Assembly: GCA_002261195.1 (NCBI GenBank)
Contig: MVBO01000028.1
Location: 85,421-149,420 of the forward strand
Source of the DNA: Bifiguratus adelaidae
Taxonomy: Eukaryota > Mucoromycota > Endogonomycetes > Endogonales
Direction of reading: 5' to 3'
DNA length: 64,000 nucleotides
Shown here: piece by piece, positions 50,610 to 53,606 of the stretch
How the letters are laid out: every line of letters begins with the position of its first letter
How positions within the stretch are numbered: position 1 is the first letter of the stretch
Notes under the pieces: generated by a model
What the model saw: the letters and a program-made list of their open reading frames with translations, nothing else
What the model was told of the DNA's origin: nothing
Databases searched by the model: none
Program-made: the position numbers and the translations under genes

Positions 50610-52066
50610 TCAGCGCCTAAGGCGATACAATGGACGCCTGGAGGATTCTCTTAAAATAGTGTTCGCTGTGTGTTGGAGATGCTTGAGTTGCTCTGCGTTA
50701 AAGCTCGTCGGCTGGTTGACAGCCCTAGCAGCTGCCAAGAGTCTTCTCCAGCCAGATAATGCGGGGTTCGCCCAATTTGGTAATGAAGAAGGCGCAATTT
50801 CGGTGCCGTCGGCGATCCAAGGACAATAGGACCGATGTTGGTGGATGATGTCAAAGGTAGGCTCTAGCTCCTTGAGAATCTCTTCATCGGTGCTGGTGGA
50901 TGGATGAAATGACCAACAGCCCACTTGGCGCAAGCACATGGGACATTCTAAAACATGCCTGTCCTCAATGTCAAGCCGTTGCCATCCAAACGAGGCTAAT
51001 AGTAAAGCTTTGCGATCATTATCTTTGAGATCCGAGAGCTCTGATGACGTAGGTATAGTCTCAATTTCGCTAGGAAAGTGGGCGAGGCAGGATAAGAGAG
51101 TTTGAAGACCGTCCGCATCCTACTCTTTCGTTAGACATCCATATCACGCACAATATCAAGGCATAAGGGACGTACCAAAGGCGAGTCGGCTATCGTCGGC
51201 AATTCGTCTGCTAACTCTGCCAGTTTTGATTGGCGAATGGCAAGGGATCGCAGTGTTATACGCGGCGGTTCGACAGGGAGCCGATAAATGCTCCCTATAG
51301 TGCGAGAATGTCAATAGGTGCATGATCTGGCAGGCGAGGCAATCTTACCATGACAAGGCTTTGTTCTCCATGGACATTCTGTCTCATGAGACTCGACGAG
51401 TTCTCCCTCGTAATATGTCTTTAGCTCGTTCTCTGCAATGTCCATGAGCACGGGGTAAAAGACAAGATATCATCTTGGTTACCTCTCTCCTTATCGAGGC
51501 CTTCAACAGACGTACTGATGGCTAACCAAGCGTGGCAAAACGTGCACTCTAGCTGATTATGAGGTGAGTACTCGCGGGCGGATCCGTCCACATTTTTGCC
51601 GGTTTTCCGTCGTTGATCGACATTGCCAGCCATATCGAGCAGCGACAGGAGGCGAGAGGAAGGAGGTTTCTGTCCAGGACAGTGGGGTATATGTGGACAA
51701 TCGCTGGAAAAAGTCTTCGCGAGACCAAGGACGGTATAAGCTTGTGTTGGGTTGCGTGATCGCGGCGGCAGCAGCCTGAGCGTCTCTCCGCCGTCTCTTT
51801 CTGCCTGCTTTCCATGCTTCCGGGTCTGAGAGTTCCGCGTCAACCTCGTCGACAAGTGACTTGAGGGCCTTGGCGTCTCTGCGAGGCGATGCCGCATGTA
51901 ATCGTGCTCGTTTTGTGAATGGGCTACAGGTGTCCTTGTAAGTCTGTGTCCACTCCTCCGTGCAATCATTCCCCTCTACATACGTGCTTGTCCTGTCAAT
52001 GATGTGATCGAGTAGACCAAGTGTCGTCTCAAGCTTTCGCTTTGTCTCTACCAGACTCTCCACCAT
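50610..52066 (-). CDS. C3HC zinc-finger protein, ZC3HC1/NIPA/Rsm1-like
   Basis: The ATG at 52066 starts [23 protein letters not shown], then a basic region and the C3HC motif start [21 protein letters not shown] with [11 protein letters not shown]. After a frame discontinuity at about 51540-51600 the frame carrying [13 protein letters not shown] continues, giving the C-x2-C pair. The distal exon holds [10 protein letters not shown] and HRSYCPWI, the second BIR-like half that completes the C and H ligands. Family members bind the nuclear basket (ZC3HC1 with TPR/Mlp) or aid mRNA export (Rsm1). I could not find a clean intron for the discontinuity, so exon structure in the middle is unsure. Its start lies only 3 nt from the stop of the upstream gene. 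Confidence 0.72.
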
Positions 52067-52069
52067 ACT

Positions 52070-53606
52070 CTATTTTTGCGCAGCGTGCAACCCAACCTTT
52101 CTGCCAAAACACAACGCTCTCTAGCAAGGAATTGCCCGCAAGTCTATTTTGACCATGAAGACCACCAGTGATTTCACCTGCTGCATACAGACCGGGTATA
52201 AGGGGGTATGGTGTTGGTTGAGAACGTGCGCTTGACTATCAATGCTAAGACTACCTCTTGGGATGAATTGGCGTGAATAGAGACAAAAGGCGATATATAC
52301 CCATGGAATAATGTAGACAAGGTGTTACCAATCCAACCCAATAGGTGGTGCTTTCGCTCGGCATGGACTTATGGGGAAACACTGTCTTGCCAAAAGGATC
52401 CTTGGCGATAGTCTGTTGGGATCGAGCAGCGAAGACATTGTAGCCTTTCAATTCGTCCTGCAATGTTTCCACGGAGACGTACATGAGCGAGGCCAATGCT
52501 TGTATGTCAGAAACAGATGTCAAGAGCAACATGGACTTGTAAAATTGCAGTGATCTGAGATCAAATTCGTTGGCACATTCGTACGACAGGACGATAAACG
52601 CTTGCGCAGAGGTGGAGGAAGCGTCATTCAATTGCGCATATCTTGAGCCCATGCACCATTCGCGTATACGATCGGATACTTGATCACATCGGCCTAGTTC
52701 ATTCACGAAGCGTCTGCCTTCTCCGTCCAGCAAGATTCCACCTACACTTCTCAGGGCTTCCGGGGCCAGAAATTTGCTGCCATCCCCACAAATCCAGTAG
52801 GATGGATCTGGACGTATTCGGTGCCGACAAAGACAGCGCCTACATTTTCGGCCAATGCGAGTGCAACGCCAGTCGCCCGGCCTCCATTCGTCGATGGCAT
52901 ATCTCCGGGAATAAAAGGATCCAATCTTTGCATCACTGAATTTTGCTGATGGTCGTTTACTTTGCCAGAGTAGCCTCCAGTGGTCAATACCAAGGCATCA
53001 ACGGGTATCTGTGCCTCCTGATCATCTCTTTGTACACTGATGCCGCAAACATGCCCCTTGTCGTTGGTTTCAATGGACAAGAGTCTGTTCGAGTTCAAAC
53101 TGTGCATGCGAACGAGGTCTTGCAATTGGTCAAACACGCTGCTTGAGACCTTGATGATGCCAAAACCTACAGGCCTACCACTACCCAGTCGATAGGTGCG
53201 TGGATAACTGTGGCCACCGCATTGGAGGACTTTGTCCAGGGTGATCTGAGCTTGATTTCTTAACCATAGTCTTGCCGTCTGGGCACGTTCGCACAAGGTG
53301 TGGACAAGAGATGGGTCAGTGAAAGATAGACCACCAGCAGATTCAATCACGTCGTCGTAGAAGGTTTGGTAGGAGTCACCATGACCCCCGGCGGAGTCAG
53401 GAGCGAGAAGGTTGATACCAGATGTTGCTTTTTGAGAGTTACCACTATGACACAAGTTGGTGGGTATGGCAAACATCACGCACGCATGCTTACACTAACG
53501 TGGACTCTTTCTCAATGATGGTGACGTTGGCAGCAGCGCAAAAAGCTTCCAAAGCACTGCTCAAACCCGCCAGTCCTCCGCCTATAACTACCACTTGCAC
53601 AGGCAT
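52070..53606 (-). CDS. FAD-dependent fumarate reductase-like protein (OSM1/FRD1 family)
   Basis: The ATG at 53606 gives [21 protein letters not shown], a Rossmann FAD-binding motif at the very N-terminus. After the first intron (about 53462-53510) comes [11 protein letters not shown], then [69 protein letters not shown] and HYSMG. The last block is [28 protein letters not shown]. All are signatures of soluble FAD fumarate reductases that reoxidise FADH2 and support anaerobic redox balance or ER oxidative folding. No targeting peptide is visible. The last 13 codons are out of frame by one base: an extra T in a TTTT run near 52105 would have to be absent to give [11 protein letters not shown] and the TAG at 52070. 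Confidence 0.82.

Follow-up and report, generated by a model that had tools for sequence, protein, structure and literature searches.

An apparent three-nucleotide spacing between a fumarate-reductase-like gene and a ZC3HC1-like gene in the fungus Bifiguratus adelaidae

Closely spaced tandem genes in fungi

Closely spaced tandem genes have been studied in yeast (PMC8573964), where, according to the available part of that report, shorter spacers accompany bicistronic RNA and, within the highly expressed class, the second gene is less efficiently translated. The locus described here is like these pairs in having two genes on the same strand with a very short spacer between them. It is unlike them in the extreme shortness of a 3-nt spacer, and a bicistronic RNA, as observed there, would here be hypothetical. 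In a selected yeast strain, expression of the second cistron falls as the spacer lengthens (10- to 50-bp), as stated in the accessible portion of PMC11952965. Polycistronic transcripts of Agaricomycetes likewise carry two full-size tandem ORFs in a fungus; in the part of the report at hand (PMC4503453), the average distance between the ORFs is 364 nt, in contrast to 3 nt at our locus, and the present genome, judging by its best protein matches, appears to be that of an early-diverging fungus. In two further systems, taken from the available parts of their reports, a second ORF that follows the stop codon of the first is translated in a fungus. The stop/restart of Victorivirus (PMC6631646) takes place on viral RNAs, and the bicistron of Glarea with its IGG element (PMC10352335) needs a specific intergenic sequence (9 bp in the optimised form) that is too long for a spacer of 3 nt.

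At the protein level, the upstream gene product can be compared with the soluble fumarate reductases of the Osm1/Frds1 type (PDB 5glg), with which it shares the FAD domain, the length and the C-terminal end. It differs from them by a cysteine in place of an invariant arginine, by being without a 6-residue loop and by the frame changes in its gene.

The two genes and their junction

The window, by which we mean the whole stretch of 64,000 nt that was analysed, reads TAG-AGT-ATG on the minus strand at 52072-52064. The letters are contiguous and in a single frame, exactly as the original prediction had read them. On this strand, the TAG (52070..52072) is the putative stop of the fumarate-reductase-like gene, the AGT (52067..52069) is the 3-nt spacer, and the ATG (52064..52066) is the start of the ZC3HC1-like gene.

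The upstream gene, of the Osm1/Frd type, occupies 52070..53606 on the minus strand. It had been predicted to be fumarate reductase-like, and this identity is well founded: FAD_binding_2 (PF00890) was matched with an E-value of 3.5e-14, and the similarity extends over the full length of a soluble fumarate reductase, as traced by tblastn pieces. The closest relative, from Umbelopsis, is 43% identical (found in a search whose length limit excludes fusion proteins). The gene has one intron called by the gene finder (53445-53493) and one read by eye (52255-52300), both on the minus strand; its exons are long and open, and in the longer ones the correct frame scores well over the other two. The assumed ATG has, by reading, a T at -3. 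A hydrophobic in-frame stretch before it (53607-53669, minus strand) aligns with the N-terminus of the Umbelopsis relative. The true start of the gene may thus lie upstream of the assumed one.

The original prediction had called the TAG a restored stop, a wording that already admits a frame correction, and the claim stands in part. The TAG is present and the tail that leads to it is family-like, but the last conserved exon, with the sequence as given, uses a different frame, passes the TAG and continues as far as a stop at 52031-52029, where it shares 38 nt with the ZC3HC1-like ORF out of frame (52029..52066, minus strand). For the TAG to be the stop, the frame has to change about 30-40 nt before it. 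In the as-given frame, which is without the G-R of the family and extends 25 residues beyond VVF, the tblastn alignments end at VVF in all five relatives inspected (25 run). The tail in the TAG frame reads FGR..G..AA and stops 9 residues past GR, close to where the 12 aligned relatives end, namely 11-18 residues past the invariant G-R. Because the alignments in the as-given frame end at VVF and the TAG frame yields a C-terminus similar to that of the family, the TAG is probably the original stop of the gene. Codon statistics do not tell the frames of the 33-nt tail apart (-1.2 for the TAG frame vs -1.0 and -0.6 for the others). The close spacing of the two genes holds whether the stop is the TAG or the one at 52031-52029.

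ZC3HC1/NIPA and the fungal Rsm1/Pml39 belong to the NuBaID family, and fungal members of the ZC3HC1/Rsm1 family often start with a KRKL-like stretch. The downstream gene (50610..52066, minus strand) had been predicted to be ZC3HC1-like, in agreement with our finding that both zf-C3HC (PF07967) and NuBaID_C (PF08600) are matched. With frames and introns (51295-51348 and 51120-51175, minus strand, called by the gene finder) joined, zf-C3HC scores 105.5 bits and NuBaID_C 58.7 bits, both over the curated cut-offs of 22.2 and 20.2. Single-frame pieces gave 38.4 bits for the start of the zf-C3HC domain, in the ORF from 52066, and 40.2 bits for NuBaID_C in a later piece. As in ZC3HC1/NIPA and Rsm1/Pml39, both NuBaID domains are there, each with its CxxC and HxxxC motifs. 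For PF07967, the gene described here is the one match reported in the 18.6-Mb genome. Since both domains score well once joined and this match is the single one reported, we regard the ZC3HC1/Rsm1-type gene as real. Full-length relatives came neither from the whole-protein search, in which 7,989 candidates were scored and none reached E<=0.001, nor from the fused-query search described below.

A mis-set start of this gene, which the original prediction had also considered, is less likely, although nearby sequence errors temper this judgement. In its ORF of 169 codons, the ATG at 52066 is the sole ATG before the zinc-finger domain, whose first residue is number 113; it is flanked by A (-3) and G (+4) and is the best start for the gene. 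The last ATG upstream of it begins at 52156, leaving room for an ATG-free leader of up to ~87 nt.

Gene packing and probable overlapping transcripts

The spacing between genes was read directly in the surroundings of the junction. On the minus strand, a gap of 69 nt (50541..50609) separates the ZC3HC1-like gene from the next same-strand ORF (ATG at 50540; no Pfam family), and a gap of 184 nt (53607..53790) separates the fumarate-reductase-like gene from the upstream HEAT-repeat gene, whose stop is at 53791. The HEAT-repeat gene (minus strand) and an asparaginase gene (plus strand) have divergent ATGs with 36 nt between them (54960..54995). These divergent starts were reproduced by one gene-finder setting (bonus 0.1), while other settings place the starts elsewhere. 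With its 36 nt, the gap between the HEAT-repeat gene and the asparaginase-ankyrin gene offers hardly any space for a shared promoter.

For a wider view, a crude self-trained gene finder was run over 264 kb, comprising the window and 200 kb of another contig (20 stretches). With one setting, convergent gaps had a median of 107 nt (25 pairs) and divergent gaps a median of 184 nt (26 pairs, six of them <=50 nt). Three other settings, for which models with <300 coding bases were excluded prior to counting, gave convergent medians of 93-139 nt and divergent medians of 126-363 nt. The medians move with the settings and are rough only; tandem gaps were left unused, as close same-strand genes are merged or split by the gene finder depending on the setting, and under its self-trained setting both genes of the junction were left uncalled. 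None of the papers listed for early-diverging fungi with compact genomes was recognised as dealing with this organism. The 3-nt gap is very short yet in keeping with its compact surroundings.

We consider it probable (roughly 0.6) that the locus consists of two ordinary, unrelated genes which are tightly packed and would be expressed as separately capped, overlapping transcripts. The ZC3HC1-like mRNA would begin within the final stretch of fumarate-reductase-like coding sequence and the upstream mRNA would be cleaved and polyadenylated within the ZC3HC1 coding region; we infer that each gene has a promoter and a poly(A) site of its own. Among the modes of expression that had been proposed for this junction (reinitiation or readthrough on a bicistronic mRNA, strongly overlapping transcripts, a mis-set downstream start), overlapping transcripts are the likeliest; the packing around the locus, with its 36-nt divergent and its 184- and 69-nt tandem gaps, is in line with them. 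The accompanying argument that the junction leaves no room for a promoter or UTR does not carry, since promoters and UTRs can sit within neighbouring coding sequence. Separate genes are further indicated by the conserved domains in both proteins, by a family end that falls close to the TAG and by the possibility of a short ATG-free leader. The letters are confirmed, the boundary is one that we infer, and the mechanism is most likely an ordinary one until RNA data indicate otherwise. The junction illustrates well how tightly genes can be packed, and at the same time it cautions about gene-boundary calls made close to sequence errors.

Sequence errors, reinitiation and decay as alternatives

Local sequence errors might have misplaced the stop, the start or both, in which case the true gap would differ and could be, for example, a short overlap. 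This is unlikely, but it is the alternative that survives best. Five frame changes lie within ~3 kb (50610-53606). Three are in the fumarate-reductase-like gene (near 52785, 52206 and 52106, minus strand), and no GT-AG intron was found for them; near 52785 the tblastn pieces abut without an intron-sized gap, and the other two were read from the sequence, the one near 52206 by eye and after an intron. Two are in the ZC3HC1-like gene (near 51600 and 51460, minus strand), where the domain scores rise when the frames are joined. All five are found at or beside homopolymer runs of 4-5 equal bases. Runs of at least 8 are depleted in the 64-kb window, with 0 observed vs ~4 expected under a first-order model, and runs of 6-7 A/T and of 4-6 G/C are also rarer there than this model predicts. 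Such a depletion resembles under-corrected long-read sequence, and coding constraint may contribute to it. With looser gene-finder settings, frame changes are placed elsewhere too (54 in 31 of 80 models, over 168 kb of coding sequence). Moreover, an artefact at the boundary would be compatible with the 38-nt overlap into which the upstream frame runs as given.

Against it stand the family-like tail in the TAG frame and the ZC3HC1 start, as the only ATG before the domain and in a good context. Homology also shows few errors elsewhere: in 22 CCT-family matches covering ~12.4 kb, all 13 breaks are intron-sized (29-59 nt), with 7 of the 22 matches containing stops that are possibly read-through introns. 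The self-trained gene finder produced 18 window gene models without a frame change, although false introns can hide frame changes. The CCT-family matches and these window models would point to a local patch of errors, the looser gene-finder settings to errors of a more general kind. A search of the same genome for another copy, against which the frames could be compared, matched only the locus itself. Because both neighbouring genes are affected, sequence error is favoured over decay of one gene. The frame changes in both genes look like sequence error, with real mutation as another possibility.

A second alternative is a functional bicistronic mRNA, on which ribosomes that finish the upstream ORF would reinitiate at the ATG 3 nt further on, in the manner of a stop-restart. 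We give this only a slim chance. The geometry permits it, and 29 ATGs precede the ZC3HC1 start (the upstream gene's own start counted and introns kept), which makes leaky scanning from the upstream cap implausible. As a route in its own right, leaky scanning to the ZC3HC1 ATG is rejected on account of the same 29 ATGs. Bicistronic transcripts are known to exist in fungi from the available parts of PMC8573964 and PMC4503453, and the accessible portion of PMC11952965 reports a selected yeast strain that expressed the second cistron with a 1-nt spacer or none. However, in yeast a second ORF separated by a stop gave no signal without the IGG element, in the part of PMC10352335 at hand, and the inter-ORF distance in mushroom polycistrons, in the available part of PMC4503453, is far from that of our locus. 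Moreover, fumarate-reductase-like and ZC3HC1-like proteins are not known to share a pathway. Slimmer still is the chance that a viral-like stop-restart cassette operates in this nuclear gene pair, with a first ORF of ~480 codons stopping 3 nt ahead of the gene for a nuclear-pore-type zinc-finger protein and reinitiation coupling the ZC3HC1-like ORF to it. If reinitiation behind a long ORF were indeed the sole source of the ZC3HC1-like protein, a fungal cell would be using a mode of translation documented chiefly in viruses and in engineered or selected strains.

It is about as improbable as a functional bicistronic mRNA that the fumarate-reductase-like gene is a paralog in decay; a live gene would then lie beside a relic now serving as its upstream region. 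Three frame changes in one gene would be in line with decay, as would the state of its GRRD motif. The site of the motif arginine (R316 in P0001 numbering) is presumably catalytic in soluble fumarate reductases. This arginine is present in all 18 relatives; in the window copy, the position (52686-52688, minus strand) encodes a cysteine, and the arginine expected of a soluble fumarate reductase is absent. The same site is an alanine in yeast Fumarate reductase 2 (PDB 6ku6) and an arginine in PDB 5glg. Activity of the window copy may therefore be lost or changed, as judged from this substitution. Moreover, a second family member on another contig, C24 (L014), has kept the arginine.

On the other hand, the window copy retains 73 of the 79 positions that are invariant in the 18 relatives, the cysteine being one of its six changes, and in a leave-one-out control single relatives depart at 0-7 invariant positions. 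The second member is no more orthodox overall, with 6 invariant positions differing besides 10 in parts left unjoined. The long open exons and the good scores of the correct frame do not suggest a relic either, and the neighbouring ZC3HC1 gene, in which the CxxC and HxxxC motifs are present, has frame changes too.

Readthrough of the stop to a flavoenzyme-zinc-finger fusion, or a splice at the AG of the TAG that joins both genes, is very improbable: TAG and ATG do share a frame and all three settings listed for one gene-finder run place an acceptor at this AG, but the splice would delete the conserved end of the FAD domain in part or entirely, looks like a gene finder avoiding close tandem genes and is not used by the settings of the other gene-finder run, and no fused relative was found in what is a weak test, a fused query limited to its zinc-finger segment with 4 candidates only and none at E<=1.

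Returning to the reading of two tightly packed genes with overlapping transcripts, the junction itself has few special features. A scan for bacterial-type promoters and terminators found nothing, which is uninformative for a fungus, and the RNA fold around the junction is ordinary (z 0.18). The pattern TARNNNATG occurs 54 times in the 64-kb window vs 56.5 expected, so that the string is at chance level, and the only unusual feature of the copy here is that it falls between the end of one gene and the start of another. The exact string TAGAGTATG has 2 copies in the window. The second copy of TAGAGTATG is at 7992-8000 on the minus strand; looser gene-finder settings model a plus-strand gene across from it.
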